Assembly (NCBI RefSeq): GCF_010882175.1
Contig: NZ_WKLH01000002.1
Coordinates: forward strand, 1,657,790-1,721,789
Length of the DNA stretch: 64,000 bases
Origin: Mangrovibacterium lignilyticum
GTDB taxonomy: Bacteria > Bacteroidota > Bacteroidia > Bacteroidales > Prolixibacteraceae
Direction of reading: 5' to 3'
Position numbers and translations under genes: made by a program. The notes under the pieces are model-generated. The model did not search any database, was not told the origin of the DNA, and saw only the letters and a program-made list of their open reading frames with translations. This document shows positions 6,494-34,474 of the stretch, piece after piece. The first letter of the stretch is position 1, and every line of letters begins with the position of its first letter.

Positions 6494-7117
6494 ATGAAAT
6501 ACAATTCATCTATCCGGAATATATTCGGCACCGGGCTCAGACTGTCCATGCCGCAGCCAAACAGCCCGCTCAAGCGCGGCTCACTGGGGCTTATCATCGC
6601 TTCGGGGAGTATATTCAAAGCAGTCAATTGGGTTCGCCAGGCATTCAAATGCATCACGCAACAGACTGAAGACGTCACACCTTCAGCCAAGGACATGACG
6701 CAACAAGCTGACGACGTCACATCTTCAGCCAAGGACGTCACGCAGCAGGCTGACGACGTCTTACCTTCAGCCAAGGACATGACGCAGCAGGCTGACGACG
6801 TCATGTCTTCAGCCAAGGACGTGACGCAACAGGCTGACGACGTCACGTCTTCAGCCAAGGATATGCTGCTAAAGAACACATCAACAAACATTAAAGCACT
6901 CATTAATAGATTTTTGATAAAATCGAAGAATCTCTTCACCTGCTGTCAGGCCGGGAATAGAGCGATCCATTGGCGTATAAACCAACCGCCGGTGGCTAGC
7001 TACAACATAGCAATCAACTTCTTAAAGCATCCGTTCGGAGAGGGTACTGGCTTTCAATGCAGCCCCAAAGGAATTCCACACCTTTGGCCTCTCCATTTAG
7101 AGACGGAAAACCAATGA
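6494..7117 (+). CDS. Repetitive ORF with heptad repeats (coding status uncertain)
   Basis: An open frame of 207 codons. Residues about 53-124 consist of 7-residue repeats alternating between DVTSSAK and D(V/M)TQQAD types. Hydrophobic residues sit 3 and 4 apart, the spacing of a coiled coil. The N-terminal 50 residues contain PQPNSPLKRG, closely matched by QNSPKRG in the ORF at 33121. The rest is not repetitive. A 21-bp unit free of stop codons stays open in any frame it is read, and the opposite strand (6487-6939) is open too, so openness does not prove coding. The array may act as DNA or RNA. The next gene begins 162 bases downstream. Confidence 0.35.
   Translation: MKYNSSIRNIFGTGLRLSMPQPNSPLKRGSLGLIIASGSIFKAVNWVRQAFKCITQQTEDVTPSAKDMTQQADDVTSSAKDVTQQADDVLPSAKDMTQQADDVMSSAKDVTQQADDVTSSAKDMLLKNTSTNIKALINRFLIKSKNLFTCCQAGNRAIHWRINQPPVASYNIAINFLKHPFGEGTGFQCSPKGIPHLWPLHLETENQ
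6563..6581 (+). other. Hairpin before 21-bp array 1
   Basis: AGCCCGC and GCGCGGCT pair around a TCAA loop with one bulged C. The surrounding CAAACAGCCCGCTC recurs exactly at 32742-32755, and a related perfect hairpin in an AACAGCCC context lies just before array 2 (33200-33219). Its recurrence suggests a shared element. Its function is unknown. Confidence 0.5.
6650..6865 (+). repeat. 21-bp-period tandem array 1
   Basis: Ten units of exactly 21 bases starting at 6650, 6671, 6692 and so on to 6839, then a fading partial unit. Two unit types alternate: GACGTCACN then TTCAGCCAAG, and GACNTGACG then CAACAGGCTGAC, so the higher-order period is 42. Most units begin with the palindrome GACGTC. No spacer lies between units, so it is not a CRISPR array. 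The period equals seven codons and also two turns of B-form DNA. Confidence 0.95.
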
Positions 7118-7279
7118 TTAGCCGTCGGATGAGTGGCCCAACCGCTTAACGACAACCGCCCTGCCCTGCCGGAAAAGCCGGCAGATCAATCAAGGATTCA
7201 GTTCGTACCGATGTACGAACCGGCCGAAATACGTGCCGGGCGGAAATTAATTGTTTAGTATACGAACAAGTGATATACA

Positions 7280-7951
7280 ATGAAAAAATCATACAGTATC
7301 CCGACTATTTTAGCGGAACAGTATAGTTTTCAGCGTACCGTAACTGAGCTCCTTGCTCAAAAAGCGACCGAATGGGGCGTTGCCCCGGAACAGGCGACGC
7401 TTATTCAGGGACTCAGTACAACCTATGAAAGCAAATACGAGGCCGCTTCGAATAGTCAAACCCAGAGTCCTGCGCTGACCTCGTCGCGCAGAGCTGCCTG
7501 GAAACCGCTTATTGCTGCAATAAGCGATTTATACAACAATAACCTCTTATATAATGGAGCTATCACGGCTGAAGACCAGGATGCGCTTCATATTCATGAA
7601 ATTATTCTGGGTGCCCGCACGCCTTATGATGCACCGGTTAGCTCTCCGTCAATCAGTATGAGTACCGAGGATGTTTCGACCTTACATGTGAACTATACCA
7701 CAACAGCATCGAGCAAATCGCATCGCAAACCTGCGGGTGTGGCGTTTTGCGAACTGGCTTGTAAAATTGGTGGTGACGCTCCAGCTGGCATTGAGGAATG
7801 TACGGCTCATTATAATATTTCGCATTCGAACCAGGAAATCGTGTTCACACCGGAACAACGAGGGAAAACCGTATTTACCTACGCACGCTGGGTAAACAAA
7901 AACGGTAAAAACGGGCCCTGGAGCAACCCGATCACGTCGATTATTCCCTAA
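7280..7951 (+). CDS. Bacteroidota FN3-like hypothetical protein downstream of array 1
   Basis: A 223-residue protein without a signal peptide. The N-terminal 115 residues are helical and resemble an uncharacterised Bacteroidota family (pattern AxxWGVxxEQATLIQGLSTTY, then RRAAWKPLIAAI). The C-terminal 95 residues look like a fibronectin type III beta sandwich ending in GPWSNPITSIIP. The gene at 33854 has the same helical-then-FN3 layout and a similar ending (NWSNEVSSFVL). It follows the repetitive ORF by 162 bases and is followed by a strong terminator. The family is known to me only as hypothetical proteins, and the function is unknown. Confidence 0.75.
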   Translation: MKKSYSIPTILAEQYSFQRTVTELLAQKATEWGVAPEQATLIQGLSTTYESKYEAASNSQTQSPALTSSRRAAWKPLIAAISDLYNNNLLYNGAITAEDQDALHIHEIILGARTPYDAPVSSPSISMSTEDVSTLHVNYTTTASSKSHRKPAGVAFCELACKIGGDAPAGIEECTAHYNISHSNQEIVFTPEQRGKTVFTYARWVNKNGKNGPWSNPITSIIP

Positions 7952-7990
7952 CCTACGGGCCGGGAAACTCTCAAACCGCCCTGACAGCGA

Positions 7991-8026
7991 AAAAGGATCC
8001 GATCTTTGGAAAGATTGGATCTTTTT
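7991..8026 (+). terminator. Terminator after the FN3-like gene
   Basis: A hairpin (GGATCCGATCTTT and AAAGATTGGATC) followed by TTTTT, 40 bases after the stop at 7951. A nearly identical hairpin lies at 8787-8823. Confidence 0.8.
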
Positions 8027-8786
8027 GTTGGTGATTGGTGAGTTCTACCATCCCGGGGCTTCACTCCGGGCTAGTGTTATTTCACTTCGCAGGAGTACCA
8101 AAGCTGAGATTTAGAGGCATTTGATCCTTTTTATATAAAGCTGCAGTCAATCCTTTTATTCCGATAAAGTCAAAGCCAGCAGGCATTGTTTATGAGTTGC
8201 CGAGAGATGGCTTCGTCGTTCCTTCTCGCCATGACGACAGACTATGAAGAAGGTAAAGAGGCAAGGCTTTGCGGCACAGTCGCAAAGCCTTGCCTCTTAT
8301 TTATAATACAACATTGTCATTGCGAGCCGGCTTTGCGCGCGAAGCAATCTAATTGCAACACAACATCGTCATTGCCGTTCCGGCTGGAATTCCGGATAGA
8401 CGGACTATAAGGAGGAGTTTTTTGACGGCCAACGCACCCGCTCCGATCGGCAATTACGATAGCCGGCCTCATTTGAGTTGTCTCACATCTATGCGGGCCC
8501 TATTGCCAGAGAGACCTGTCTGCGCGATACTGTCGAAGACGTTATCAGGCTGAGTTGATGAAAAGACACTGAGCACAGCTAAGGTTCAATTGTCTCACAG
8601 GCATGCCGGCTCTTCCCCTCTCTACTGGTAGAGAGGGACGATAATGTCGAAGACGTTATCAGGGTGAGTTGATGAAAAGATGATTAGACATACTGATCCT
8701 GTCGGGTTCACCGGTGGTGATGCATCGTATTCCCGGGGTTTCGCCCCGGGCTGTTGCTCACGGCCCTTTGGGCCTTGATAGAAGAA
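8027..8786. repeat. Repeat-rich noncoding region
   Basis: No credible gene. It holds several dispersed elements. CCCGGGG/CCCCGGG-type palindromes lie near 8055 and 8731. GTCATTGCGAGC then GAAGCAATCT lies near 8317-8350. The phrase GAAGACGTTATCAGG followed by TGAGTTGATGAAAAG occurs twice (about 8535 and 8645). CGGACTATAAGGAGG near 8400 recurs near 9210. Related GCAATGACG elements occur at 9172-9290 and 47851-47907. The short frames 8186-8410 and 8353-8553 fall inside these elements and are not supported as genes. Confidence 0.7.
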
Positions 8787-8823
8787 AAAAGGATCCGATC
8801 TTTTGGAAAGATCGGATCCTTTT
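8787..8823. terminator. Bidirectional terminator before the PspC gene end
   Basis: A near-perfect palindrome AAGGATCCGATCTT / AAAGATCGGATCCTT with flanking A and T runs, 40 bases beyond the stop of the minus-strand PspC gene. It almost repeats the terminator at 7991-8026. Confidence 0.8.
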
Positions 8824-8862
8824 CACGTTTCCGGTAGGTTTTAACGGTGGGATGTAGCCGTT

Positions 8863-9012
8863 TTATTTCGACAGCATTTTAACGATCCACAGGATTAGGT
8901 ACAGCCCTAAACCAACTCCGAAAATTAAGACACCGACCACGAAAGCAATGCGGATTGCTGTTACATTCCAGCCCAGTTTACCACTTAACCATTCTGACAC
9001 GCCTAAAATCAT
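8863..9012 (-). CDS. Small PspC-domain membrane protein
   Basis: A 49-residue protein with one long hydrophobic segment (about residues 20-45). It begins MILGVSEWLSGKLGWN, continues with TAIRIAFVVGVLIFGVGLGL, and ends IVKMLSK. The order of a short amphipathic start, an RIAF turn and a glycine-spaced membrane helix matches the PspC domain. In the phage-shock response PspC is an inner-membrane regulator; small stand-alone versions are common in Bacteroidota and uncharacterised. The start ATG at 9012 is the only one possible. The gene stands alone on the minus strand with a terminator after it. Confidence 0.8.
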   Translation of the reverse strand: MILGVSEWLSGKLGWNVTAIRIAFVVGVLIFGVGLGLYLILWIVKMLSK

Positions 9013-9337
9013 AATTATTTATTTTTGGGGTTAACATTAAACCCAAATGTAGCAAATAAATATCGTCGATCGTACTTTAAGAATATCAAAAAGCAACAGC
9101 GGCCCAACAAACAAACTTCGTTATTCCTGTACACGAAAACGGGTGACACAGTGATAAGCTGAGTGTACACGGTTGCGCAGATTGCTTCGCTATGCCCGCA
9201 ATGACGCGTCCGGACTATAAGGAGGCTGTCCCCTCTTGGAAATTCGTCATGACGAGGCAATCTGTCGCATCCTTTTCGACGTACACGACGAACGGGCAAT
9301 TTGTGCCCCTGCGATGGGTTTGCCTAACAACGAAATG
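9013..9337. repeat. Intergenic region with dispersed GCAATGACG elements
   Basis: No credible gene. GCAGATTGCTTCGC then GCCCGCAATGACG (about 9178-9206) and a second, inverted, partial copy (about 9244-9265) belong to the same dispersed family as the elements at 8317 and 47851. The first about 60 bases, AT-rich, would hold the PspC gene promoter. Confidence 0.6.
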
Positions 9338-10522
9338 CTACATTCCAAGCACCAGCAACTTTACCCAGGCCAGTTGCAGCTCTCGCTCTGCATCCACGAA
9401 CTGATCAACCGCTTCGTAGTTAAACTGCATTTCGAGCAGGTACTCAATCAGCGAGATTTGCCCGACACGGAGTGCTTCCTGCAGTAAATCCTGCTGTTGG
9501 ATGCTTGCCAGCTCATCGCGAAAGCCATCCACACGTGCCGAGGCGAGTTGCACCGAACGGTAAAGCTTTTGCAAGGAGGATTGAAATTGCAGTTGAAAGT
9601 CCTGCTGTTCCAGCTGGTTCGATTCCTGCCGCAAACGGGCTGCCTTCACGGTATTCTTATTCTCCCACAGCGGAATGGAAAGCCCCAAAGTCACGCCCTG
9701 AAACTTCTCACCAACGGTATTCTCCATCATGTAACCACCGTTGATCTTCGGCAGGCTTTGACTGCGGTTCAGCCTGACTGCCCGATCGGCAGCATCAGCT
9801 TCGAGCGTGTACCAACGGGCCTGCGGATTGTTCTGCATAACGGCCTGTGCCCACTGCTCAAAGTCAGCAGGCAGGCTTACCGGTTCGTAAACGGTCTGTT
9901 CCACCGGCAGCGGCTGGTTGCCGTTAATGGCATTCAGGCTCAGTTGCAACAATTCCCGTTCCTGCTGCAAACGAGCCAGTGCCTTTTCCATTTGCATGAA
10001 GTTGAGCGCTGCCTTGTTGCGATCGATCCGGTTGGCATCGCCGGCCGTTAAGCGTTCCTCATAGGCATTGGCCAGCTTTCCGGCCAGATCAGTGCGCTCC
10101 TGCTGAATGGCAATCCGCTGATTCAGGTTGACCAGTTCAGCCCACAGCTGAGCGGCTTCCTGCATCAGGGCCAGGCGGTATTGGTCGGCACTCAGGTCGG
10201 CTTGCAGATCCCGCAGGTCGGCCAGTTTATTTTGATGGTGATAAACAGTTGGAAAGGCAATCTCCTGGCTCACCGATAAATCCTTCCGGTTGCCAATGGC
10301 TGAAGGACTTCCCCACAGATAGCCACCGCCAATCTCCGGGTTATCGGGCGTATTGCCAATCCGGTTCTCCGCTTTCTGCGCTTCGGTCAACGACTGTTGT
10401 GCGCGGTATGCGGTACTGTTTCGTTCAACTTCCTGTAAAACGCTATCGAGGCTTTGCTGCGCCATGGCCGGGATTACCCAAAGCACAGCCAGCAAAGCAA
10501 AACTAATTTTTCGCATCGTCAT
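9338..10522 (-). CDS. TolC-family outer membrane channel of metal efflux operon
   Basis: A 394-residue protein with a signal peptide (residues 1-21, ending AMAQQ). It is composed of long Gln/Glu/Leu-rich helices in two similar halves, the layout of outer membrane efflux proteins (CusC/CzcC type). It is somewhat shorter than the classical 420-480 residues. It would form the outer membrane duct of the tripartite efflux pump. It is the last gene of the operon, and its start lies 20 bases inside the end of the RND pump gene, so the two are translationally coupled; the ATG at 10516 is an alternative start. Metal specificity cannot be read from this subunit. Confidence 0.88.
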   Translation of the reverse strand: MTMRKISFALLAVLWVIPAMAQQSLDSVLQEVERNSTAYRAQQSLTEAQKAENRIGNTPDNPEIGGGYLWGSPSAIGNRKDLSVSQEIAFPTVYHHQNKLADLRDLQADLSADQYRLALMQEAAQLWAELVNLNQRIAIQQERTDLAGKLANAYEERLTAGDANRIDRNKAALNFMQMEKALARLQQERELLQLSLNAINGNQPLPVEQTVYEPVSLPADFEQWAQAVMQNNPQARWYTLEADAADRAVRLNRSQSLPKINGGYMMENTVGEKFQGVTLGLSIPLWENKNTVKAARLRQESNQLEQQDFQLQFQSSLQKLYRSVQLASARVDGFRDELASIQQQDLLQEALRVGQISLIEYLLEMQFNYEAVDQFVDAERELQLAWVKLLVLGM

Positions 10523-13500
10523 TCTGTTTTAATAGTCCAAAGCGGTGCAGCAATTGGTAAATAACCGGCACCAGGTAAATATTCAGCAAGGTTGAAGACA
10601 ACAGTCCACCCAAAATCACTTTGGCCATCGGGCTTTGAATCTCGTTGCCCGGTGCATGACCGCGAAAAGCCAACGGAATCAAGGCCAGTGCAGCCGTCAG
10701 TGCTGTCATCAGGATCGGGTTCAACCGATCGACTGAGCCACGAATGAGAATGTCGCCCAGTTTCATGCCCTGCTCTTCCATTTGCTGAAAGCGCGAAACC
10801 AGCAGAATCCCGTTTCGGGTGGCAATACCAAACAAAGTGATGAAACCGATAATAGCCGGGATGCTGATAATGCCTGACGTGACATAAATGGCGAAAACAC
10901 CACCGATCAAAGCCATCGGCAGGTTGAGCAAAATGATGCCTGCCAGCTTCAGGTTTTTGAACTCCTGGTACAATAGGAGGAAGATGATGAGGATGGCCAG
11001 GGCCGTTGTCATCGCCAGGGTCCGCGAGGCTCGTGCTTCACTTTCGAACTGCCCGCCGTATTCAATGCGATAGCCTTCGGGAAGGCTGATATTTTTGCTA
11101 ATCTCCTGCTGAATATCTGTTACGGCACTGCGCAGATCACGCTCGCTCACGTTGGCCGAGATCACCAGCTTACGTTGTACATCTTCGCGGCTCACGCGGT
11201 TGGGTCCGGCAACCGATACAATTTCGGCAACCTGCTCCAACGGGACTTTCCCTCCCGCGCCGGTATCAATCAAGGCCGACTTCAGTCCTTCCATCGTATC
11301 GGTGTAATCGGAGTTGAAACGCAGCACAAGGTCGAAACTTTGCTGACCTTCGTATATGTCGCCCAGCTTTTCACCGCCCAGCGCCAAATCGACAAAATGG
11401 GTAAACTCGTCGATGCTGATGCCATACTGCGCCAGCATGGCCCGACGTGCCTTGATCTGGATTTGAGGAACCTCAACCTGTTGTTCCACATTCACATCAA
11501 CCAGACCATCAATATCCGAGACGGACTGCTGTATCTGTGTTCCGATGCGGTAAAGCTCGGTCAGTTCTGTTCCGAACAGCTTAATGGCGATATTGGCCCG
11601 CGTTCCCGAAAGCATGTGATCGATGCGGTGCCCGATGGGTTGGCCAACGGTTGCGGCAATACCCGGAATACCGTGCAGCTTTTCGCGCACATCGGCCATA
11701 AAGGCCTCGCCGGAACGATCGGCCAGTTTAAACTTGACCTCGATTTCGGCACTGTTGGTTGCCTGCGAGTGTTCGTCCAGCTCTCCCCGCCCCGTTCGAC
11801 GGGCTGTGCTTCGCACTTCGGGTATCGACAATAGTTCTTCTTCAATCAACTTGCCCAATTGGTTGCTCTCATCGAGCGAAATCCCCGCCTGACTGACGGC
11901 AGCAATCGTCAATGCGCCTTCGTTGAATTCGGGCAGGAAACTACGCCCCATGCCGCTTAATAAGATGACGGAAATGAGCAACAAGGCAAAAGCCGCTCCC
12001 AGGACCAGCTTCTTCCAACGAAAAACGGCTAACAAGGAACGCTCGTAGTAGTGATTCATGTTGCGTATGAGCCAGCTCTCTTTGCTTTTCCGCCCCAGGT
12101 ATTTTTCGCCGGTGAGCAACAAGCGACACAACAGCGGCGTCAGGGTCATGGCTACAATCAGCGACACAAACAGCGACACGATGTAGGCAATCCCGAGCGG
12201 CTTCAACATGCGTCCTTCCATGCCCGACAGGAAGAAGAGCGGGATGAAAGCCACCATGATAATCAGTGTGGCATTGAAGATGGAGGAACGAATTTCTTTG
12301 GAGGCCTCATACACGACTTTCCAGGCCGCCACCTGATCGGCCTTCGGCTGTTGATGGTTTTGCCGCAAGCGCTTGAAGACATTCTCCACATCGATAATCG
12401 CATCGTCAACCAGCGAACCGATGGCAATGGCCATTCCTCCCAAACTCATCGTGTTGATGCTTAATCCGAGTGCCTTCAGAACCAGCACTGCACCCAGCAG
12501 CGACAAGGGAATGGCCAGCAGCGAGATGATGGTGGTCCGGAAACTTCCCAAAAACACGAAGAGGATGATGACCACAAACAAGCCCCCTTCGAGCAGGGAA
12601 TCCTTCACGTTGTTCACGGCCGTTTCAATGAAATCAGCCTGCCGGAAGATGTGGGTATCCAAGACCACATCGGGTGGTAAGGTCTGACTTAAAGCATCCA
12701 GATTATCCGATATGCGTTCAGTCAGTTTCAGCGTGTTGGTATTGGGTTGTTTGGATACCGAAAGAATCACGGCGGGTTTACCATTCTGCGAGGCGTAGCC
12801 CATCTTCACGGCCGCGTCGATCTTCACCTCGGCAACATCTTCAACGTACACCGGCTGACCGTCCTTTAACTTGATCAGTGAGCGTCCCAAATCAGACAAA
12901 TTTGATGTACGGGCCATGCCACGCACCACATATTCGTTGCCGTATTCACGCACAACACCGCCGGTCGCATTTTCGCTGATGCCACTGCAAACCGATGCCA
13001 GCTCATCGAGACCCACATCGTAAAGATCCATCAGTCGCGGGTTGGCTAATATCTTATATTGTTTGTAATCGCCGCCAATAATGGTCACCTGCGAAACACC
13101 ACCTGTAGCCAGCAATACCGGCTTGACGTTCCACTCGGCCATTGTGCGCAGATCCATCATGCTGGTCGAGTCGGCCTGCAAGCCCACGAACATCACCTCG
13201 CCCATCACACTCGACTGCGGCGCCATGATTGGTTGCCCAACGCCGACCGGCATCTGTCCGGCCAGCATAACCAGCTTCTCACTCACTATTTGCCGGGCTT
13301 TGAAGATGTCGGTTCCCCAATCAAATTCAACCCAAACAAACGAAAACCCCTGCGATGAGCTGGAGCGAACACGACGCACATCGGTCGCACCGTTCACTGC
13401 CGTTTCAATGGGGAAAGTCACCAGTCGTTCCACCTCTTCGGCGGCCATGCCATGCGCATCGGTCATCACCACAACAGTTGGCGCGGTGAGATCGGGAAAC

Positions 13501-13613
13501 ACATCCACGTCCATATCGCGGGCGGTGTAAATACCGGCAAAGAGCAACAGTGCCGCTCCCAACAAGACGATTAGTTTATTCTGAAGGGAAAATTGAATTA
13601 TTCGATCTAACAT
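10503..13613 (-). CDS. CusA/CzcA-family heavy-metal efflux RND permease
   Basis: A 1036-residue inner-membrane proton-driven pump of the heavy-metal efflux RND class. It has the first membrane helix at residues 12-30, two large periplasmic loops, and two groups of membrane helices (about 335-535 and 865-1020). The fourth helix carries MAIAIGSLVDDAIIDVEN, with the acidic pair needed for proton relay. This motif differs from both classical CzcA (DFGIIVDG) and CusA (AIGAMVDAA), so the metal cannot be assigned. The adaptor gene lies 15 bases upstream and the outer membrane gene overlaps its end. His-rich neighbours make a divalent or cuprous metal likely. Confidence 0.93.
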   Translation of the reverse strand: MLDRIIQFSLQNKLIVLLGAALLLFAGIYTARDMDVDVFPDLTAPTVVVMTDAHGMAAEEVERLVTFPIETAVNGATDVRRVRSSSSQGFSFVWVEFDWGTDIFKARQIVSEKLVMLAGQMPVGVGQPIMAPQSSVMGEVMFVGLQADSTSMMDLRTMAEWNVKPVLLATGGVSQVTIIGGDYKQYKILANPRLMDLYDVGLDELASVCSGISENATGGVVREYGNEYVVRGMARTSNLSDLGRSLIKLKDGQPVYVEDVAEVKIDAAVKMGYASQNGKPAVILSVSKQPNTNTLKLTERISDNLDALSQTLPPDVVLDTHIFRQADFIETAVNNVKDSLLEGGLFVVIILFVFLGSFRTTIISLLAIPLSLLGAVLVLKALGLSINTMSLGGMAIAIGSLVDDAIIDVENVFKRLRQNHQQPKADQVAAWKVVYEASKEIRSSIFNATLIIMVAFIPLFFLSGMEGRMLKPLGIAYIVSLFVSLIVAMTLTPLLCRLLLTGEKYLGRKSKESWLIRNMNHYYERSLLAVFRWKKLVLGAAFALLLISVILLSGMGRSFLPEFNEGALTIAAVSQAGISLDESNQLGKLIEEELLSIPEVRSTARRTGRGELDEHSQATNSAEIEVKFKLADRSGEAFMADVREKLHGIPGIAATVGQPIGHRIDHMLSGTRANIAIKLFGTELTELYRIGTQIQQSVSDIDGLVDVNVEQQVEVPQIQIKARRAMLAQYGISIDEFTHFVDLALGGEKLGDIYEGQQSFDLVLRFNSDYTDTMEGLKSALIDTGAGGKVPLEQVAEIVSVAGPNRVSREDVQRKLVISANVSERDLRSAVTDIQQEISKNISLPEGYRIEYGGQFESEARASRTLAMTTALAILIIFLLLYQEFKNLKLAGIILLNLPMALIGGVFAIYVTSGIISIPAIIGFITLFGIATRNGILLVSRFQQMEEQGMKLGDILIRGSVDRLNPILMTALTAALALIPLAFRGHAPGNEIQSPMAKVILGGLLSSTLLNIYLVPVIYQLLHRFGLLKQNDDAKN

Positions 13614-13628
13614 AGCTCCTCCCTTCGA

Positions 13629-26239: not shown

Positions 26240-26263
26240 AAAAAAAGGGAAGCCATGCTTCCC
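26240..26263 (-). terminator. Terminator hairpin between ppc and the carbonic anhydrase gene
   Basis: On the minus strand GGGAAGC-ATG-GCTTCCC is followed by seven T. It starts 10 bases after the ppc stop (26273-26275). Some readthrough or a separate promoter would be needed for the downstream gene. Confidence 0.8.
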
Positions 26264-26272
26264 TAACGATCA

Positions 26273-29044
26273 TCAACCCGTTGATCCAAGTGCGTTCGCG
26301 ATTGCGTTCACACACTGCAACAACGCAAATAAGTAATCATCTTCATCAGGCGTTTTATTCTTTTTGCTTTCGCGCCATTTCTGCAAGAGCTCAATTTGTG
26401 AATCGTGCAAAAAGTTCAGCGCCTCGGCACGCAAGATTGTCGAGTAATAGTGACTCTTACGCCGTTCATTCATGGGTTTCTTCAACAAGGCCGTCAACAT
26501 GTCACGCGTCAGTTGCAGCTCATCTTTCATCATCGTCAGGATTCGCTCCCGGATAAATTTCTCCTCAACCAAACCGGCATACTTTTCCATGATCACCTCA
26601 TCGGTCGACGCTAAGCTCGAATCCAGGTTGGTCATCACATAACGCACAAAGGGATCGTACTTCACCAAATGAAGCAGTTTCTCCCACTCTGCCGGCTGTT
26701 TGGTTTTCATCTCATTCAAGGTTGACCCCACACCGTACCAACTGGTAATGTTGAAGCGCGATTGTGACCAACTGAATACCCATGGAATCGCCCGCAGATC
26801 TTCCATGCTGCGTTTCCCTGAACGTCGGGCAGGCCGCGAGCCAATCTTGCTCGATTCAATGACATCGATTGGTGTTGCCTGTTCGAAGAAACGAATGAAA
26901 TCAGGATCGGACAGCAGCTTCCGGTAATAGAAGCGACCGCGATCGCCCAACCTGCGGAAAAGCGTTTCAACTTCTTCCCGCTGGCCGGTTGTATTTTTGT
27001 GCAGAATGGTTTGAGCCGTCACGCTCGAGATCATCAGTTCGAGGTTATAGGCGGCGTTCACCAGGTTGGCATATTTCCGTTCGATGGTTTCACCTTGTTC
27101 TGTAATCCGGATCTTTCCGTTGATCGATCCGAAAGGCAAGGTTTTAACAAACCAGTGCGTTGGACCGGCACCGCGGCTGATACTTCCTCCCGTACCATGG
27201 AAAAAGCGAATGCTCACACCGTGTTTGAGCCCGATTTCCGTTAATTCCTTTTGTGCTTCGTGCAAAAACCACGAGCTGGCCAGAATACCGCCATCCTTAT
27301 TACTGTCGCTGTAACCAATCATCACATCCTGGATGAGTTCCCCATTCGGATTTTCCAGGGCCTGCAACTTCAAACTGTTTTTCACCACCGGATGATTCAG
27401 GTAGTCATCCAGAATACCGGGACTTTCCTTCAGGTCTTCGATTGTTTCGAACAACGGCACCACCGGCAATTGCGCCGCCAGCCCTGTTTGTTGTTTAATC
27501 ATCAGGCCGGCTTCCCGCATAAACAGGTAAACGGTCAGTAAATCCTCGGCATTGCGGGTCATACTCACAATGAGTTTACCCAAGGCCTGCGATCCGTATT
27601 TTTGAATGTGCTCATTCACCACCTGCAGCGAACGAACAACATTGGTTCCTTCTTTATCCAAACTTTGATAGCGCACCAAAAACGGGCGGTTGATCTTCAA
27701 CTCCTGATCCAGGAACTCGCGTTTGGCTTGTTGCGACGATTCAACTTTCTCTGCTGTCTGATCGCCCAACGAAGTTCTCACAAGCTGACTAAGCGCTTTC
27801 TCATGATATTCACTGTTTTGCCGGATATCCAGTTTGGCCAGGTGAAAGCCGAATACCTTCAGCAGGCGTTTGCAACGCCCAACATCAATCCGGGCAACTT
27901 CCCCGATTCCGGATGCTTCCAGTTCGGCATACAACAAATCCAGGTCGGCAATCAGTTCACCGGCATTTTTATAGCTGGCATCCCGGTCCTCCAATTCCGG
28001 ACTGGACTCGCGGCTCAGGTCAATTGGAATTTTATGCAGCAACAAAAGAACGAAAGCTCTGAAAACCTCGTCATTATGTTCCTTCAATTCAATCTTGGCC
28101 TCTTGTCCCAGCTCTGCAGCCAAAACAGTAATCCGCGTAGCAAATTCCTTGCTGGCTTCCCGGATATTGCGGTAGATGCTCAGTTTCTGAGCCAATTCTT
28201 TCAATTCGTTTTTAACGATTGAAAAAGCATGAACCCGCAGCTTTTTCAAAGTCATCTTCGTGATCTCGGGAGTGACCAGCGGGTGACCGTCACGATCTCC
28301 CCCAACCCAGTTCCCAAACGATAAGCCGGGAAACAGATCCGTGTTATTCAATAAGTCCGGATCGAAGCCTGATTCTTTCCAGGCCTGGCGCAGGCGTTTA
28401 TCCAGGATGATAATCACACCCGGGAAAACATTTGTGAGGTAGTGGAGAATATTATCCAGCTCCGATTCGAGCCGGGGCTTTTCAATGTAGATTTCACCCA
28501 CATGCCAAAGGCGATGGAGAATCTGCTTAATCTCTGTTCTGATTTCCTCCTGCTCAATACGGGTGTACATCTGGTTTTCCCGCTTAACCAGCAAGAGGTA
28601 TAGCTTGCGGTATTCGTGCAAAACAACCGAACGTTTGGCTTCCGTTGGGTGAGCCGTCAAAACCGGTTCAACAAGCACCGACGGCATGACCTCCAAAATC
28701 TGTTGTTCGCTGACACCTTGCGATTTCAACAATTTAAACTGGTGGGCCCATAAGCCATTCACACTGGCCATCTCGTCATCTTCTTTATGACGACGGCTTT
28801 GTACGGCACCATTCACCTCCACTAAATTGAGCAACTGAAAACACATCGACATCAGGTGGATGTATTCGTTGTTGATCAAATCTTTCGGCGTTGGCTTGAC
28901 CGTTGTATCTAACCACGGGATTAACCCGACCAGGTATTCCTTCTTACTTTCTTCCAGCACTTCCTGGAAACACTGTAATAAAAACTGAAGATCGCCATAA
29001 GGCTTCCCAAGCGCTTCCTTCACTTGGTTGAAAATTGTACTCAT
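26273..29044 (-). CDS. ppc: Phosphoenolpyruvate carboxylase
   Basis: A 923-residue cytosolic enzyme that carboxylates PEP with bicarbonate to oxaloacetate, replenishing the citric acid cycle. Catalytic features include VLTAHPTEAKR with H132, GYSDSNKDGG near 575, the glycine loop FHGTGGSISRGAG near 612, and RAIPWVFSWSQSR near 765. Length matches bacterial enzymes. The C-terminus ends GSTG where most enzymes end QNTG, a minor change at the allosteric/active site tail. The bicarbonate-related neighbour lies downstream. The gene is first in its unit, with an AT-rich upstream region. Confidence 0.96.
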   Translation of the reverse strand: MSTIFNQVKEALGKPYGDLQFLLQCFQEVLEESKKEYLVGLIPWLDTTVKPTPKDLINNEYIHLMSMCFQLLNLVEVNGAVQSRRHKEDDEMASVNGLWAHQFKLLKSQGVSEQQILEVMPSVLVEPVLTAHPTEAKRSVVLHEYRKLYLLLVKRENQMYTRIEQEEIRTEIKQILHRLWHVGEIYIEKPRLESELDNILHYLTNVFPGVIIILDKRLRQAWKESGFDPDLLNNTDLFPGLSFGNWVGGDRDGHPLVTPEITKMTLKKLRVHAFSIVKNELKELAQKLSIYRNIREASKEFATRITVLAAELGQEAKIELKEHNDEVFRAFVLLLLHKIPIDLSRESSPELEDRDASYKNAGELIADLDLLYAELEASGIGEVARIDVGRCKRLLKVFGFHLAKLDIRQNSEYHEKALSQLVRTSLGDQTAEKVESSQQAKREFLDQELKINRPFLVRYQSLDKEGTNVVRSLQVVNEHIQKYGSQALGKLIVSMTRNAEDLLTVYLFMREAGLMIKQQTGLAAQLPVVPLFETIEDLKESPGILDDYLNHPVVKNSLKLQALENPNGELIQDVMIGYSDSNKDGGILASSWFLHEAQKELTEIGLKHGVSIRFFHGTGGSISRGAGPTHWFVKTLPFGSINGKIRITEQGETIERKYANLVNAAYNLELMISSVTAQTILHKNTTGQREEVETLFRRLGDRGRFYYRKLLSDPDFIRFFEQATPIDVIESSKIGSRPARRSGKRSMEDLRAIPWVFSWSQSRFNITSWYGVGSTLNEMKTKQPAEWEKLLHLVKYDPFVRYVMTNLDSSLASTDEVIMEKYAGLVEEKFIRERILTMMKDELQLTRDMLTALLKKPMNERRKSHYYSTILRAEALNFLHDSQIELLQKWRESKKNKTPDEDDYLFALLQCVNAIANALGSTG

Positions 29045-29352
29045 AGTTTAAGTCTTTTCGGTTTTACAGAACAGCCAACTGTTTTAGGTGTTCACAGAAA
29101 ATGAGCAGATCAGCTAATTTTACAAAATTTCGTTTGATTTAGCCGTTTAAACCGTGCAAATTTCCAAAACGAAAACAACAAGGCATCCCTCGGCTAAACC
29201 TTTCGCTAAACGCTTAACCGATCATCGAAACATTGCTTTTATTCCCCTTAAGCGAATAAGAAGGTCGACGTTCAAGAACTTTCCTGCCCGATGCCTGTTG
29301 AACCAAACTGATTTGTATTTTACAGACCAAGGAATAACCAATCAGATAACAC
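29045..29352. other. Intergenic region upstream of ppc
   Basis: A 308-base region between divergent ppc and the NTF2-like gene, AT-rich near ppc. An open frame at 29154-29456 overlaps the next gene and has no features. No hairpin or RNA gene was seen; promoters for both sides are expected here. Confidence 0.5.
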
Positions 29353-29739
29353 ATGAAGCCGAACCAAACAAACTTAAAGGAAATCGCCTCCGATTTTCTA
29401 ACCCACGTGGCAACCGGAAAAGTGGAGGAAGCATTCGTCAATTGGGTGGCCAATGACTTCAAACACCATAACCCCTGGTTTAAAGGCGATGCGCAGTCGC
29501 TCAAACAGGCCATGATTGAAAATGCAGCAGCGTCGCCCGAAAAATCGCTTCAGATTAAGCAGACCATCGCCGAAGAAAAAAGCGTGATGACCTTTTCACA
29601 CATCTGCCAGCACCCGACCGACAAAGGCTATGCAAGCGTTCACATATTTCTGTTCGACGATAACCAAAAAATAACAGAGTTGTGGGACGTCGGTATGCAA
29701 ATTCCGGACGTTATCGCCAATGAACACGGCCTGTTTTAA
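29353..29739 (+). CDS. SnoaL/NTF2-like domain protein
   Basis: A 128-residue single-domain protein with the cone-shaped NTF2/SnoaL fold signature: an N-terminal helix (EIASDFLTHVATGKVEEAFVNWV), ANDFKHHNPWFKGDAQSLKQAM, and C-terminal strands SVHIFLFDDNQKITELWDV. Proteins of this type often annotate as polyketide cyclase-like or ester cyclase-like, but the substrate is not deducible. No signal peptide, so cytosolic. It stands alone. Confidence 0.82.
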   Translation: MKPNQTNLKEIASDFLTHVATGKVEEAFVNWVANDFKHHNPWFKGDAQSLKQAMIENAAASPEKSLQIKQTIAEEKSVMTFSHICQHPTDKGYASVHIFLFDDNQKITELWDVGMQIPDVIANEHGLF

Positions 29740-30073
29740 GCGGCTGTCGGAAAAGTCGGGTGAATTTTGCCGGCACAATCAGGTTGGAAGTCCGGCCCTG
29801 GTTCCTAACCCCTATATCCCCTAAAGGGGACTTAAGCCTCACCTTCAGGAACGGCTTGGGAAGATCAATCGAAAGTGGAAAACAATTTGCAAGCAGACAA
29901 AACCTGCCAGCCATTTTTTTTTGACAAAAGCCTCAATTTCGGGGCAAAACGGTCCTGTTTCGTTGCGAATTCTTAAATAAGTTTAAAGATGTTGCAATTT
30001 GTATGACAAGTGCTTGATGCATCTGTAAATTTAGACTACTTTCACTACTGGAAAACGAAATTAGTCGAATATA
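29740..30073. other. Intergenic region with CCCC-TAAA-GGGG element
   Basis: A 334-base region without a credible gene. It contains the phrase ATCCCCTAAAGGGGACTT near 29818, a small hairpin of a type scattered through Bacteroidota genomes. The AT-rich last 100 bases presumably hold the promoter for the TetR gene at 30074. Confidence 0.5.
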
Positions 30074-30673
30074 ATGGTGCTAGAGAAAGACGAAAATGCA
30101 AAACTTGAAATCCTCCGCGAGGCGCAAAAGCTGTTTCAACAGTTTGGCTTGAAAAAGACAACCATGGATGAAATTGCAGGGTCATGCGGAAAAGCCAAGA
30201 GCACCCTCTATCATTATTTCAAAAGTAAAGAAGACGTTTTCGATGCTGTTATCGAAATGGAGATGACCAACCTGCGCAAAGTGGTCAAAGAAAAGGTTGA
30301 ATCGCAAAAAACAGTCGCCGATAAGCTCAAAACATACATCCTGGAGTTTCAGCGCGAGTCGGTTAAAAAAGCCAATCTGTACCGGATTGTCCAATACAAA
30401 ACACAACACGAGAAACGATCGAAGATCCTCTTTCACCGGATGATGGAATTTGAAAAAGCCTACATCCTTCGGATCATGCAGGATGCTTATGATGCCGGCG
30501 AATGTCCGGACTATTGTACGGCCGACCTTCCTGCGGTAGCCGAATTGCTGCTGGCCGGCTTTTACGGAACAATCCAATACCTGATTGAAAGGGATGACCA
30601 GACTGATCAGCAAAAACTCGAAAAAATCGCTGAAATCTTCACCCAGAAACTATTCGGCAAATCTGCCGGCTAA
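30074..30673 (+). CDS. TetR/AcrR-family transcriptional regulator
   Basis: A 199-residue regulator. The N-terminal helix-turn-helix is at about residues 10-55 (EAQKLFQQFGLKKTTMDEIA, then KSTLYHYFKSKEDVF). The helical C-terminal part binds an unknown ligand and dimerises. It is on the plus strand, 225 bases before a second TetR gene. No gene it obviously controls is adjacent apart from that. The flanking DNA here lacks the AGACC-N4-GGTCT palindromes found upstream of the second regulator. Confidence 0.9.
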   Translation: MVLEKDENAKLEILREAQKLFQQFGLKKTTMDEIAGSCGKAKSTLYHYFKSKEDVFDAVIEMEMTNLRKVVKEKVESQKTVADKLKTYILEFQRESVKKANLYRIVQYKTQHEKRSKILFHRMMEFEKAYILRIMQDAYDAGECPDYCTADLPAVAELLLAGFYGTIQYLIERDDQTDQQKLEKIAEIFTQKLFGKSAG

Positions 30674-30848
30674 AATCCGATTAAAAGACGCAAATAGTTT
30701 TCAGTTCAATTGATCCCCGATCAGCAACGAGGTCGCTGCCTGTCATTACAAAACGTCCATCATCGGTTGGGTAAACCGGTTTAATCCCTGAAACAACCGG
30801 ACCAAACTCCCTGCTTAAGTTAATTCTTCATTAACTCAGTTCAAAAAA

Positions 30849-30862
30849 AGACCATTCGGTCT
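30849..30862. promoter_or_regulatory. Operator copy 1 (AGACC-N4-GGTCT)
   Basis: Palindrome AGACCATTCGGTCT upstream of the second TetR gene, 22 bases (about two helical turns) from copy 2. The same palindrome precedes the flavin reductase gene. Confidence 0.8.
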
Positions 30863-30869
30863 CCTAGTT

Positions 30870-30885
30870 TAGACCGAGTGGTCTA
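30870..30885. promoter_or_regulatory. Operator copy 2 (TAGACC-N4-GGTCTA)
   Basis: Palindrome TAGACCGAGTGGTCTA. Its right end overlaps the putative -7 promoter box at 30884-30891, so a bound repressor would block initiation. From memory, NemR-type regulators use similar sites. Confidence 0.82.
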
Positions 30886-30891
30886 TTTTTG
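30884..30891 (+). promoter_or_regulatory. Putative -7 promoter box of the second TetR gene
   Basis: TATTTTTG matches the Bacteroidota consensus TAnnTTTG. The ATG at 30899 is only 7 bases further, so the transcript could be leaderless. Confidence 0.5.
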
Positions 30892-30898
30892 TATCATT

Positions 30899-31480
30899 AT
30901 GAGCAAAGCAGAACGTACACGACAGTTTATCATTGAAAAAGCAGCTCCCATTATCAACAGGAAGGGCATGGCCGGCGCTTCACTGAGCGATATTATGGAG
31001 GCAACCGGATTGGCCAAAGGTTGCATCTACGGGAACTTCGAAAACAAAGATGAAATCTGCCTCGAAGCGTTCAACTACCTGTCTCAAAGCTATGTAAAAA
31101 GTATGATGGCGCACCTTCAGCCGTTCACCGGGAGCAAAGCAAAACTCATTGCTTACCTCGATTACACCCTGGCCGGAAAACACAGGGATGAAATGGGAGG
31201 CTGCCCGGTTATTAATTTTGGTGCTGAGTCGGATGATACCCATCCGGCGGTTCGCGAACGGGTTAAACAAGTCATCCGGTCATCGCGGGAGTTTATTACC
31301 TCCTTGCTTCGTGAAGGAGTGGAGAGCGGTGACTACTCGCCCGATCTGAATTGCGAAACCCAGGCGCTAAAAATATACACCTTGCTCGAAGGGGCGGTCA
31401 TCATCAGCCGTATCGAAAACAACAGAGAACAATTAGAACAGATCGTGAATCTGATCAAAGCAGAAATTGAAACATTCTGA
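30899..31480 (+). CDS. TetR-family repressor, probably of the OYE reductase
   Basis: A 193-residue regulator starting MSKAERTRQ; the seven codons upstream of this ATG overlap the promoter and operator. The helix-turn-helix is at about residues 25-50 (GASLSDIMEATGLAKGCIYGNF). The C-terminal half has the conserved GCPVINFGAES loop, with a Cys, seen in TetR repressors that respond to electrophiles (NemR/AcuR-like). Two operators precede it and one lies between it and the reductase gene 50 bases downstream. Autorepression and control of the reductase are strongly suggested by these sites. The inducer is probably an electrophile, by analogy. Confidence 0.9.
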   Translation: MSKAERTRQFIIEKAAPIINRKGMAGASLSDIMEATGLAKGCIYGNFENKDEICLEAFNYLSQSYVKSMMAHLQPFTGSKAKLIAYLDYTLAGKHRDEMGGCPVINFGAESDDTHPAVRERVKQVIRSSREFITSLLREGVESGDYSPDLNCETQALKIYTLLEGAVIISRIENNREQLEQIVNLIKAEIETF

Positions 31481-31499
31481 AAAAAATTTAAACAGGAAC

Positions 31500-31513
31500 A
31501 GACCAATTGGTCT
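31500..31513. promoter_or_regulatory. Operator copy 3 (AGACCAATTGGTCT)
   Basis: A perfect palindrome 17 bases before the start of the flavin reductase gene, the same as the two upstream of the TetR gene. Confidence 0.82.
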
Positions 31514-31530
31514 AAAAGAAACAAACAGCT

Positions 31531-32622
31531 ATGGAAAATAATTTATTCACACCGCTCCGGTTAGGAGATTACACCCTGAAAAACAGGGTCGTTATGGCGC
31601 CATTGACACGCATGCGCGCCAATCCGTCCGATTTGGCACCGACCGATTTGAATGTTGAATATTATCGTCAACGCTCAAGCGCCGGTCTCATTGTAACCGA
31701 AGCCTCGCAAATATCACCACTGGGTATGGGTTATCCGCTCACCCCCGGTATTTACAGCCCCGCACAAGTTGCCGGTTGGAAAAAAGTAACCGACGCTGTT
31801 CATGCTGAAGAAGGAAACATCTTCATTCAGTTGTGGCATGTTGGCCGGGTATCGCACAGTTCGTTGCATCCCGAAGAAGGTCTTCCGGTAGCGCCATCGG
31901 CTGTTGCTGCCCCGGGAATGACTTTTACCGCCAGCTTTGAGCAAGTGCCTTTTGAAACACCGCGTGCAATCACGGTCGACGAAATTAAACAAACCATTCA
32001 GGACTACCGGAAAGCAGCCGAAAACGCCAAAGCAGCCGGTTTCGACGGTGTGGAACTGCATGCCGCCAATGGTTATTTGCTGCACGAGTTCATGCACGAA
32101 ACCAGCAACCAACGCACCGACGAATATGGCGGTTCGGTGGAGAACAAAGCCCGGCTTGTATTTGAAGTGCTCGACGAACTGGTTGATGTACTCGGTGCCG
32201 GAAAAGTTGGTATTCGCCTGTCACCCTTCGTTTACCCTTACGGCGAGTACGATCCGGAATCGTACGAAGTGTATCAGTACATTATTGAGAAGCTGAACGA
32301 TTACCAACTGGCTTATGCCCACCTGGTTCGTTACCGCCAGGGTGAAATTGAGCATGTAGCCGAAAAAGAAGCAGCACTCTGGAAAGCATTCAACGGAACC
32401 ATTATTACGGCTGACGGCTTTACACCCGAAAGCGGTGAAGAATATGTTGCCAGCGGCAAGGCCGACGCCATTGCTTACGGTCGTCACTTCATTGCCAACC
32501 CCGATCTTCCCAAACGGATCCGGTTGAAAGCTGAATTAAATCCGTACGATCGGGATACCTTCTACGGAGGCGCCGAAAAAGGCTACACCGATTACCCGTT
32601 CCTGGAGACGCAAAAGGCTTAA
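31531..32622 (+). CDS. Old yellow enzyme family alkene reductase
   Basis: A 363-residue FMN enzyme that reduces activated alkenes and nitro-compounds with NAD(P)H (NemA/OYE class). It has the TIM-barrel order: LFTPLRLGDYTLKNRVVMAPLTR at the start, the substrate-anion pair H177/N180 in ELHAANGYLLHEF, and the FMN phosphate region ADGFTPESGE...AIAYGRHFIANPDLP near 300-340. It lies 50 bases after its likely TetR repressor, with one operator between them, and is followed by a strong hairpin terminator. Electrophile detoxification is the probable job. Confidence 0.93.
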   Translation: MENNLFTPLRLGDYTLKNRVVMAPLTRMRANPSDLAPTDLNVEYYRQRSSAGLIVTEASQISPLGMGYPLTPGIYSPAQVAGWKKVTDAVHAEEGNIFIQLWHVGRVSHSSLHPEEGLPVAPSAVAAPGMTFTASFEQVPFETPRAITVDEIKQTIQDYRKAAENAKAAGFDGVELHAANGYLLHEFMHETSNQRTDEYGGSVENKARLVFEVLDELVDVLGAGKVGIRLSPFVYPYGEYDPESYEVYQYIIEKLNDYQLAYAHLVRYRQGEIEHVAEKEAALWKAFNGTIITADGFTPESGEEYVASGKADAIAYGRHFIANPDLPKRIRLKAELNPYDRDTFYGGAEKGYTDYPFLETQKA

Positions 32623-32649
32623 TCAGAACAAAAAGTTACGCCATAACAC

Positions 32650-32690
32650 AGAGGCGCTACCCGTTGATCAACAACACGGGGGGCGCCTCT
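32650..32690 (+). terminator. Terminator after the OYE reductase
   Basis: Stem AGAGGCGC / GCGCCTCT with a long loop, followed by a T-rich run, 28 bases after the stop. Confidence 0.75.
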
Positions 32691-33120
32691 CTTCGTTTTG
32701 GCACTCCGGCACCCAAGCCTCCCCTTTCCTTGCCTTCCCGACAAACAGCCCGCTCTTCCGCAGGCTACCGGCCACAAACAACAACAATCCGATCCCGCAA
32801 CTCACTCATAACAAACGAATAAAACCCTTCTATTCAGCACATTTGTGCATTTTATTGTTTCATTGTTTGCAATTCTTATGCTTAACAGCCATAACTTGCT
32901 GTTCCGTAGACATAAAGTCTGCCGACCCGTTCAACAAAGGAACAAATAAAAAGCTGCAGCGCATTTTGCGGTGCCTGGCAGCATCGATTTTTAAAAAGGA
33001 TTGCCTCTGTGCAGCCTGACAGGACAAAGAGTAAAGCGGTTACTACAAGTGGATCATTCTAAAAGCGATTAAAGTTGTTTTCGACAGGAAATAAACAACT
33101 AAAACCTTTAACCATCACCC
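32691..33120. other. Upstream region of the array 2 ORF
   Basis: No gene seen. It contains CAAACAGCCCGCTC at 32742-32755, an exact 14-base match to the hairpin context before array 1, with AGCC and GGCT able to pair across it. The later part is AT-rich and likely holds the promoter of the array 2 ORF. Confidence 0.5.
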
Positions 33121-33861
33121 ATGGTCTGTTTAAATCTTTTAGAACGATCGCCAATCGATCAACCAACACAAGTGCCATTTTGGGCCATTTCGCCCCAAAA
33201 CAGCCCCAAAAGGGGCTGTATTGAACAATATCCACTTAAATACAACCATATAAATGGCATATACAACCATATAAATGAATTATACAACCATATAAACGGC
33301 ATATACAACCATATAAATGAATTATATGACCATATAAACGGCATATACAACCATATAAATGACATATACAACCATATAAACGGCATATACAACCATATAA
33401 ACGGCATATACAACCATATAAACGGCATATACAACCATATAAATGAATTATATGACCATATAAACGACATATACAACCATATAAATGACATATACAACCA
33501 TATAAACGGCATATACAACCGTATCTGCAAAATTGTTAACTGTATCCGCTTAAAATATGGTTGTATATGGGCTCGTATACATTGTACAGGCTGCCCGATT
33601 AACTGTCTCCGGCGACTATCTGGTTGTATCTGCGCCTTCAGGCCTCGTATTCCCGGGCCACACCAGCATCAACTGTTCGCGTTACACCGAAAAACCCGTA
33701 AAAACAAGTCAACAAGCACCTCTACGAACCAACTCCGTCGGTTTCAGCAAGGGAGCTGCCGGACAGTGTTCTCCCAAACCGGGCAATTCGGTCATTTCAC
33801 TGAAATTGTTGTTTCAAATCCCGATAAATTAAAAACCAAAAAAATGAGTCATTATGAATAA
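33121..33861 (+). CDS. Repetitive ORF with heptad repeats (coding status uncertain)
   Basis: An open frame of 246 codons. After a non-repetitive start containing QNSPKRG (compare PQPNSPLKRG in the ORF at 6494), residues 41-138 are heptads of YNHIN(G/E/D)(I/L). Hydrophobic residues are 3 and 4 apart. Decaying heptads with a Cys/Ile-rich look (IVNCIRL, YGCIWAR, SGCICAF) continue to about residue 180. The frame ends MSHYE and overlaps the start of the FN3-type gene by 8 bases, so translation could be coupled. As with array 1, a stop-free 21-bp unit stays open in many frames (the minus strand is open at 33159-33530), so coding is not proven. Confidence 0.4.
   Translation: MVCLNLLERSPIDQPTQVPFWAISPQNSPKRGCIEQYPLKYNHINGIYNHINELYNHINGIYNHINELYDHINGIYNHINDIYNHINGIYNHINGIYNHINGIYNHINELYDHINDIYNHINDIYNHINGIYNRICKIVNCIRLKYGCIWARIHCTGCPINCLRRLSGCICAFRPRIPGPHQHQLFALHRKTRKNKSTSTSTNQLRRFQQGSCRTVFSQTGQFGHFTEIVVSNPDKLKTKKMSHYE
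33200..33219 (+). other. Hairpin before 21-bp array 2
   Basis: Perfect 8-base stem ACAGCCCC / GGGGCTGT around AAAA, 21 bases before the array. It matches the position and AACAGCCC context of the hairpin before array 1. No T run follows, so it is not an obvious terminator. Confidence 0.55.
33241..33660 (+). repeat. 21-bp-period tandem array 2
   Basis: Thirteen well-conserved 21-base units (TACAACCATATAAATGGCAT plus one base; variants GAA-TTA and GAC-ATA) from 33241 to 33513. From 33514 about seven decaying units keep the same phase and a core of TGTAT. All units start at 33241 plus multiples of 21. It is unrelated in sequence to array 1 but has the same period. Confidence 0.95.
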
Positions 33862-34474
33862 AGTTTTAACCAGTTTCTCACCCAATCGATTAACCGATTC
33901 TGAATTGATTGTACTAAGCGGCGGGGCTTGCAGTCAAATGAATGGCAACCCGCACTTCCCTACTCCTTCGCCGGAGCTGATTACCGTACAAACTGCTACG
34001 GATGAATTCCTGACTGCTGATGAAAAATCGAAAACGGGTTCACACCAGGATGTGGCGATTAAAAATCAGAAAAGGAAGAATTTGGAGAAACTGCTTCATG
34101 CCCTGGCTGTCTATGTGAACCTGACAGCCGATGGCGACGAAGCGATCTTGTTAAGCAGTGGTTTCGAATTGGCTAAAAAAGCCGAAGCGGTTGGACCACT
34201 CGACGCACCTGAAGGCCTGCAGGTAAAAGCGGGTAACGCAAGAGGTTCGCTCAGCGTGAGTTGCAAACGGGTAGCCGGAGCCGGCAGTTATGGCTTCGAA
34301 TACCGCCAGTTGCAAACTGAATCAGATAATGGTTGGATCCGTGTTGATTCGACCAAGCACAATATACTCGTTACCGGCTTAGTAAGCGGAGGCCAATATG
34401 CTTTCCGTGTGATGGCGATAGGGAGTAATCCGCAACGTAACTGGAGTAACGAGGTAAGCAGCTTCGTACTTTAA
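33854..34474 (+). CDS. FN3-type protein with possible double-glycine leader
   Basis: A 206-residue protein. The N-terminus reads LTDSELIVLSGG at residues 13-24, and Leu at -12, Glu at -8, Leu at -7 and -4, and Gly-Gly at -2/-1 fit the double-glycine leader consensus cleaved by C39-peptidase ABC exporters. A helical part (about 70-115) follows, then a fibronectin III-like domain ending WSNEVSSFVL. The layout resembles the gene at 7280. Its start overlaps the array 2 ORF by 8 bases, and a terminator follows. The leader match may be chance, since no ABC exporter gene is in the window. Function is unknown. Confidence 0.75.
   Translation: MNKVLTSFSPNRLTDSELIVLSGGACSQMNGNPHFPTPSPELITVQTATDEFLTADEKSKTGSHQDVAIKNQKRKNLEKLLHALAVYVNLTADGDEAILLSSGFELAKKAEAVGPLDAPEGLQVKAGNARGSLSVSCKRVAGAGSYGFEYRQLQTESDNGWIRVDSTKHNILVTGLVSGGQYAFRVMAIGSNPQRNWSNEVSSFVL

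Follow-up and report, generated by a model that had tools for sequence, protein, structure and literature searches.

Tandem arrays with periods near two or four helical turns beside small genes with a predicted helix-plus-FN3 fold in Mangrovibacterium lignilyticum and its relatives

We analyzed a window of 64,000 nucleotides from Mangrovibacterium lignilyticum (contig NZ_WKLH01000002.1, positions 1,657,790-1,721,789), the whole of which was searched for tandem repeats. Two tandem DNA arrays lie 5' of, and on the same strand as, two genes for proteins of just over 200 amino acids, P0001 and P0002 (Table 1). Tandem Repeats Finder (TRF) reported only these two as high-scoring arrays, and two other places in the window score just 51. 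The self-identity of array 1 is 0.90 at a lag of 42 bp and 0.51 at a lag of 21 bp, and that of array 2 is 0.95 at a lag of 21 bp. In the AlphaFold models of both proteins (mean predicted local distance difference test score 87.7 for P0001 and 92.2 for P0002), three long helices are followed by a beta-sandwich. The best 50 Foldseek matches of each model all lie on this FN3 part and are FN3-type domains, among them those of POMGNT2 and cytokine receptors, proteins that carry FN3 domains. TRF, AlphaFold and Foldseek thus agree with the first-pass annotation of this DNA, which had described two arrays based on 21 bp, each 5' of a gene with helical and FN3-like parts. It had also read NSP(L)KRG at the start of a short open reading frame (ORF) at each locus, and the ORFs overlying the two arrays both contain it, as NSPLKRG/NSPKRG.

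P0002 belongs to family A1 and P0001 to family A2. The two families align by hhalign over 190 columns (probability 96.4, E 1.2e-9), and by this profile comparison they are one superfamily. At E<=0.01 the Pfam fn3 model is found in 24 of 84 A1 members, and an NCBIfam scan gave no name for P0001 or P0002. We analyzed 106 loci (92 A1, 14 A2), leaving out the gene fragments L016, L023, L035 and L036, repeat matches at one place, and L079 with its 1850-aa frame; 19 rows of the order-wide A1 profile search stand outside this set. A flank was called periodic when it showed at least 60% identity over 84 bp within 1 kb beside the gene, and the upstream test covered 100 loci since six had less than 400 bp upstream. 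Periodicity was found upstream in 86 of the 100 loci: at 21, 42, 63 or 84 bp in 80, at 40 or 60 bp in two, and elsewhere in four. Among 400 random 1-kb segments of the organism's own genome, used as the control, 6 were periodic and 2 of these at 42 bp. Downstream of the gene, 13 of 103 loci were periodic, and in 7 of these the period is a multiple of 21. Within the lags of 38-45 bp, FN3-type loci show 42 in 77 cases, 40 in 3 and 41 in none, and three loci (L033, L137, and L055) have arrays of period 20/40 instead of 21/42. The association of FN3-type genes with arrays of period 21 or its multiples is real. In relatives, the contrast of 80/100 with 2/400 gives strong support to the earlier idea that these loci form a family in which unit content is free and the period fixed.

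The same layout occurs with a second kind of gene. The array at L174 precedes a gene of the DUF6261 family (PF19775), and a PF19775 search of 61 relatives gave 44 matches in 14 genomes. In the 30 loci analyzed, with the gene start set near 195 bp before the domain, an upstream array is present in 25 (period 41 in 16, period 42 in 9), and one of 30 is periodic downstream, at 47. Among arrays without a lag of 20-22, period 42 is found in 8 of 9 FN3-type and 9 of 24 DUF6261 arrays (Fisher p 0.017). Homology of DUF6261 to the FN3 families is unsupported by hhalign (probability 0.7 for A2; 12 for A1, E 0.0024), and DUF6261 is apparently unrelated to them yet shares their layout. A third, related family is represented by a 235-aa gene (L156:17407-18540) that matches the A2 profile at E 2.3e-5 and has an upstream 42-bp array with the core GAGTCATGACTC. 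A period-83 array (about 2 x 41.5; L187:18230-18618) was observed directly before the DUF6261 match G000:C9:469003.

The sequences of the units vary far more than their lengths. Similarity between A1 arrays is 0.391 against 0.384 for permuted columns (2415 pairs), indicating nearly unrelated units. It increases only once the proteins become close, from 0.398 (permuted 0.388) at 30-40% protein identity to 0.415 (0.388) at 40-50% and 0.463 (0.374) at 50% or more. The first-pass annotation held that the units differ entirely, which is right for sequence identity and misses a dyad symmetry that runs through the set. Dyad symmetry was tested, as were reading frames, in 87 of 90 upstream array regions (core of at least 84 bp). 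These regions had been found via lags of 21, 42, and 63, so the lag-21 count inside the cores is biased and was not used. By column permutation, 49 of the 87 arrays are symmetric at p<=0.05, and the stricter level of p<=0.01 is reached by 33. Under a stricter control with 21-mers from the flanks of the same loci, at least 6 of 8 pairs are matched in 55 of 87 consensus units versus 19% of the flank 21-mers, and 23 of 87 arrays taken singly reach p<=0.05. The units as a set are thus dyad-symmetric, and their content is not wholly free.

The 42 best arrays were used for the details of pairing. Pairing peaks 2-7 bp from the dyad center, and symmetric double changes number 103 against a shuffled expectation of 51+-6. 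Of 53 arrays compared for variation between units, 47 have arms that vary less than the remaining unit, and by more than permutation gives (p 7e-8). Arm mismatches in the 42 best arrays comprise 88 G·T and 98 A·C, and the lack of a G·T excess points to symmetry of DNA rather than RNA. DUF6261 arrays resemble this pattern, with dyad symmetry at p<=0.05 in 12 of 25 and arm mismatches of 15 G·T against 23 A·C. RNA hairpins as the basis of the arrays were rejected: there is no G·U preference, no general hairpin before the arrays, and no Rfam match at gathering scores in the window.

Motifs matching the Bacteroidota promoter consensus with at most one mismatch are enriched in the 300 bp before the arrays (32 sense versus 17 antisense and 16 reversed), and hardly at all between array and gene (15 versus 14 and 11). 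Because the promoter-like motifs precede the array, it is probably transcribed. The first-pass annotation had also placed a hairpin, in a AACAGCCC context, at both loci as part of their shared layout. The hairpin before array 2 is perfect (Table 1), the one at 6563 before array 1 has a z of about 0 and is not supported, and visual reading gives a weaker one in two related G002 loci. No general hairpin shows in the 60 bp that precede the arrays of 86 loci (mean z -0.30, 9 loci with z < -2), compared with a control stretch further upstream (mean z -0.10, 6 with z < -2). The sequence context is no general component either. The genome has exactly two copies of the 13-mer AAACAGCCCGCTC; both are inside the window, and the second (32743-32755) lies outside the duplicated module described below, 485 bp 5' of array 2. 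With at most one mismatch it has 11 genome sites versus 18 for the reversed pattern, no enrichment, and the motif AACAGCCCGCTC was rejected since it is not enriched. Apart from the two loci, the window carries on its minus strand (4270-6104) a histidine-kinase-like and response-regulator-like pair matching the PADLOC candidate models PDC-M43B and PDC-M43A.

Table 1. Features of the two array loci in the window (window coordinates).
Feature	Position	Strand	Description
ORF across array 1, 207 aa	6494..7117	+	probably no constrained protein (codon-position tests on the set)
Array 1	6652..6865	+	TRF period 42 (2 x 21), 5.1 copies; 5' of first helix+FN3 gene
P0001, family A2, 223 aa	7280..7951	+	three helices and FN3-like sandwich; own-genome paralogue 61%
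Duplicated module (left end, leader, array, gene, terminator region)	32822..34661	+	98.3% over 1840 bp to C11 copy; flanks unrelated
Promoter-like TTTG-N22-TAACTTG	32866..32898	+	by eye; in left end common to G002 loci
ORF across array 2, 246 aa	33121..33861	+	overlaps P0002 gene start
Perfect hairpin before array 2	33200..33219	+	z about -5
Array 2	33240..33524	+	TRF period 21, 13.6 copies (also period 42, 6.8 copies); unit ATACAACCATATAAACGGCAT
Inverted copy of array-2 unit core	33555..33569	-	repeat search, 15/15 complementary to CATATACAACCATAT; just 3' of array 2
P0002, family A1, 206 aa	33854..34474	+	three helices and FN3; 8 own-genome matches, 2 of them short fragments
Terminator-like hairpin and T run after P0002 gene	34557..34580	+	by eye

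The second window locus is part of a duplicated module. Its two copies differ at 7 of 416 bp in the left segment, 10 of 285 in the array, and 5 of 621 in the gene. A third copy of array 2, without gene and leader, lies at G000:C8:1439694-1440072 (L160:4694-5072; 89% over 379 bp) and has sharp ends; these ends resemble an imperfect inverted repeat. A gene-less array at L150 shares 77% identity with the DUF6261-linked array of L220 across 217 bp. Several paralogue pairs share left segment and gene with arrays that do not align, as in L021/L027 (94% and 91% on either side). L021 also has an 8-bp array after its FN3 gene (1341-1402, TAACTGAG x 7.8), and the related L027 has TCAATTAC; the L021 repeat is like the TAACTGA repeats of Beggiatoaceae by name alone. 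A genome search with the window unit found a single additional array, on C8, plus a handful of isolated sites with three mismatches, against 9 in the control. As a single target site elsewhere, TTACTCGCGAGTWA has a few single matches outside the two known arrays, and the control has 2. No empty insertion site was found in G002 or G003, where the flanks are not syntenic.

The genes have a patchy distribution. P0002 has a match in 9 of 100 searched genomes, own included, and four genus members have 8, 2, 2, and 2 matches, the last two being just fragments; in the genus mate G003 (L016, L023), 3'-end fragments of the FN3-type gene are all that remains. Profile searches, with the own genome counted, found A1 in 23 and A2 in 9 of 393 genomes of the order, and A1 in 5 of 198 genomes drawn from the phylum. 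A profile search of contigs with alignment A3 gave 7 loci. Relatives were not found in viral contigs with alignment A3 nor in plasmids and phages with P0002, which matches none of 72,556 plasmid records. One family member, L055, is in a metagenome-assembled genome labelled Methylococcaceae, outside Bacteroidota, and has a 40-bp array, reflecting either mis-binning or transfer.

We propose, with somewhat less than even confidence, that each array is a phased row of symmetric DNA sites for a cooperative dimeric binder that controls the gene. Each locus would be a dispersed module of promoter region, tandem array, and small gene. The array would offer locus-specific dyad-symmetric sites of roughly 12-16 bp, with centers every two helical turns at FN3-type loci (21 bp) or about every four at DUF6261 loci (41-42 bp), and such spacings would place all sites on one side of the helix. 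A DNA-binding protein that is symmetric (a dimer) could fill the row cooperatively and thereby control a gene transcribed through or beside the array. We favor cooperative binding of a symmetric protein because symmetric sites in helical register with free letters are what such binding needs. If symmetry and spacing alone are conserved, the letters may drift freely as the units homogenize within an array. The product of the adjacent gene would be the first and obvious, although unproven, candidate for the binder, and the arrays would be copyable without the gene. A wider form of this proposal, which we consider doubtful, would make helix-phased Bacteroidota arrays (a spacing of two or four turns and the dyad selected, letters free) the cis half of a two-part system. 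Its protein half would be A1, A2, the third family, and DUF6261, each copy reading its own array, and the gene-less arrays would be further targets for the same protein at other places on the chromosome.

Several observations weigh against binding of a symmetric protein. Upstream periodicity is absent from 14 of the 100 loci, and the array lies 3' of the gene instead in seven (L025, L028, L031, L131, L133, L134, and L136). Of the 87 arrays, 38 miss a dyad p of 0.05. In the window itself the dyads are weak: array 2 has p 0.06, and array 1, taken at period 21, has a nonsignificant p of 0.29. For this reason the symmetry claim refers to the array set. No known DNA-binding fold was found in A1 or A2, where the best Foldseek matches fall on the FN3 part, and the median isoelectric point of the first 105 residues is near 6.1. 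Paralogues within a genome show no tendency to make their arrays differ from one another; insulation between such paralogues, considered as a separate candidate, was rejected because it was not seen. The sense frame across the arrays is open more often than expected, for which pure DNA binding offers no explanation. Many arrays also have no such gene nearby. In 1.2 Mb of the own genome, sampled as 60 stretches, the 37 tandem-repeat clusters comprise 11 whose period is a multiple of 21 (210 in one case), 5 at 20 or 41, and 21 others. The first-pass annotation had named many other periods, or a lack of gene association, as grounds for giving up its family of loci. Arrays of other periods and arrays distant from the genes do exist in the genome, and they count in part against the family, but the association is very strong when viewed from the genes. 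Arrays of 21 or 42 bp without a recognized FN3-type or DUF6261 neighbor were observed at L142:18690-18846, L182:4992-5322, L197:8576-8790, L192:19166-19485, and L200:14000-14100, and other small gene families may be linked to them.

In the main rival explanation, the arrays would be copyable minisatellites like the miniature inverted-repeat transposable elements (MITEs) BrickBuilt (23 nt) and PgRS (41 nt), travelling with genes and having no binding role, with the symmetry arising from amplification. We judge this unlikely. The module copy with unrelated flanks, the gene-less copies (the C8 copy of array 2; L150 versus L220), and the patchy occurrence in the genus support such copying, and tandem repeats of 41, 23, and 22 nt are known in Porphyromonas gingivalis of the same order (PMC4596501). 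However, the units are nearly unrelated between loci, unlike those of BrickBuilt, and hitchhiking leaves unexplained both why about four fifths of two gene groups retain an array and why the arms are better conserved than the spacers. The two 98% module copies have, by eye, neither target duplication nor terminal inverted repeat (TIR) at their ends. A search of the window for the IS5-like TIR GAGACC..TTGCA of the BrickBuilt type (at most 2 mismatches) gave 4 matches versus 9.9 expected, none at the arrays.

A translated leader ORF with the array as its middle part, in which the repeat peptide or ribosome passage matters rather than the DNA, is quite improbable; it would account for periods in multiples of three. 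Of the 87 arrays, 62 have a sense frame that stays open across at least 95% of the core, versus 48 for reversed, 43 for complement, and 43 for reverse complement sequences. These frames also reach further outward than other sense frames (left mean 113 versus 51 bp, right 88 versus 41) and than antisense-open control frames (left 62, right 54 bp). The preference of FN3-type loci for 42 over 40 and 41, and their difference from DUF6261, would also fit a leader. Against it, 25 of 87 arrays have no sense frame open to this extent, and three FN3-type loci have a period of 20/40. Inside units, all three codon positions vary to the same degree (0.41/0.41/0.40, 62 arrays). Changes by codon position in the ORF before the array number 22/34/37 (10 pairs), with no clear third-position excess, compared with 117/79/266 in comparison genes (9 pairs, a set differing from the pre-array pairs). 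Heptad amphipathicity is absent, with 6 of 79 open frames at p<=0.05. Period 41, found in 16 of 25 DUF6261 arrays, cannot hold a reading frame and counts against the option of seven codons, and it is close to four helical turns. A gene for coding heptads or a coiled coil as the main explanation was rejected by the codon and heptad tests and by this period. The first-pass annotation had offered seven codons or two helical turns for the 21-bp spacing; the codon option comes out weak, although the sense frame is still open more than in controls. Translation of the arrays may occur, and of the 33121..33861 frame it is possible, but selection on the peptide was not seen and the set shows no amino-acid constraint.

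A locus whose sequence can change wholly, yet which retains repeat length and mirror symmetry, would allow constraint on DNA geometry to be told apart from constraint on sequence. The roughly one hundred arrays, their units largely unrelated, are natural replicates for testing this. If the neighboring proteins do bind the arrays, the DUF6261 and helix-plus-FN3 families, so far without an assigned function, would gain one, and pairs of protein and site would record how specificity evolves. If they do not, the data would still show a systematic tie between particular genes and Bacteroidales minisatellites, encountered in print only as P. gingivalis MITEs.

Three known kinds of system invite comparison. 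Type III toxin-antitoxin loci (ToxIN) have a tandem array 5' of a small gene in one transcript. That the arrays here are transcribed into RNA antitoxin repeats and the gene encodes the toxin is very improbable: the one-strand order of promoter-like motif, array, and gene and the multi-copy, patchy distribution would agree with it, but the symmetry is of the DNA type with paired arms lacking G·U preference, the array is sometimes 3' of the gene, the best structural matches are FN3-type domains, and PADLOC gave no match for P0001 or P0002. A ToxN-like endoribonuclease is not among the best 50 Foldseek matches per model, and no direct ToxN comparison was made. Plasmid partition centromeres and iterons (ParR/parC, RepA) are helically phased tandem sites of roughly 20 bp beside the gene of their binder, with sequences that differ between plasmids. 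The arrays described here resemble them in having phased sites of about 20 bp that are symmetric or direct. In contrast, the 1.84-kb module lacks a nucleoside triphosphatase and a Rep, ribbon-helix-helix or helix-turn-helix protein, and the window's contig measures 1.8 Mb. A literature search, with most subscription journals outside it, listed no paper seen to describe arrays tied to these gene families, and the arrangement of gene plus DNA array may not yet have been described. The nearest relatives in print are the MITE minisatellites BrickBuilt (23 nt) and PgRS/464 (41 nt) of P. gingivalis, intergenic tandem arrays reported together with 22-nt repeats (PMC4596501). BrickBuilt occurs 19 times in one genome. 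Dyad symmetry is mentioned for these minisatellites, the number of units varies between strains, and bidirectional promoter activity is reported. Each element family has one unit sequence and IS5-like 12-bp TIRs, and the cited parts of that paper describe no constant partner gene. Like these elements, the window-type arrays are intergenic, multi-copy, about two or four helical turns in period, and found in Bacteroidales; unlike them, each locus has a unit of its own and usually an FN3-type or DUF6261 gene as its partner.

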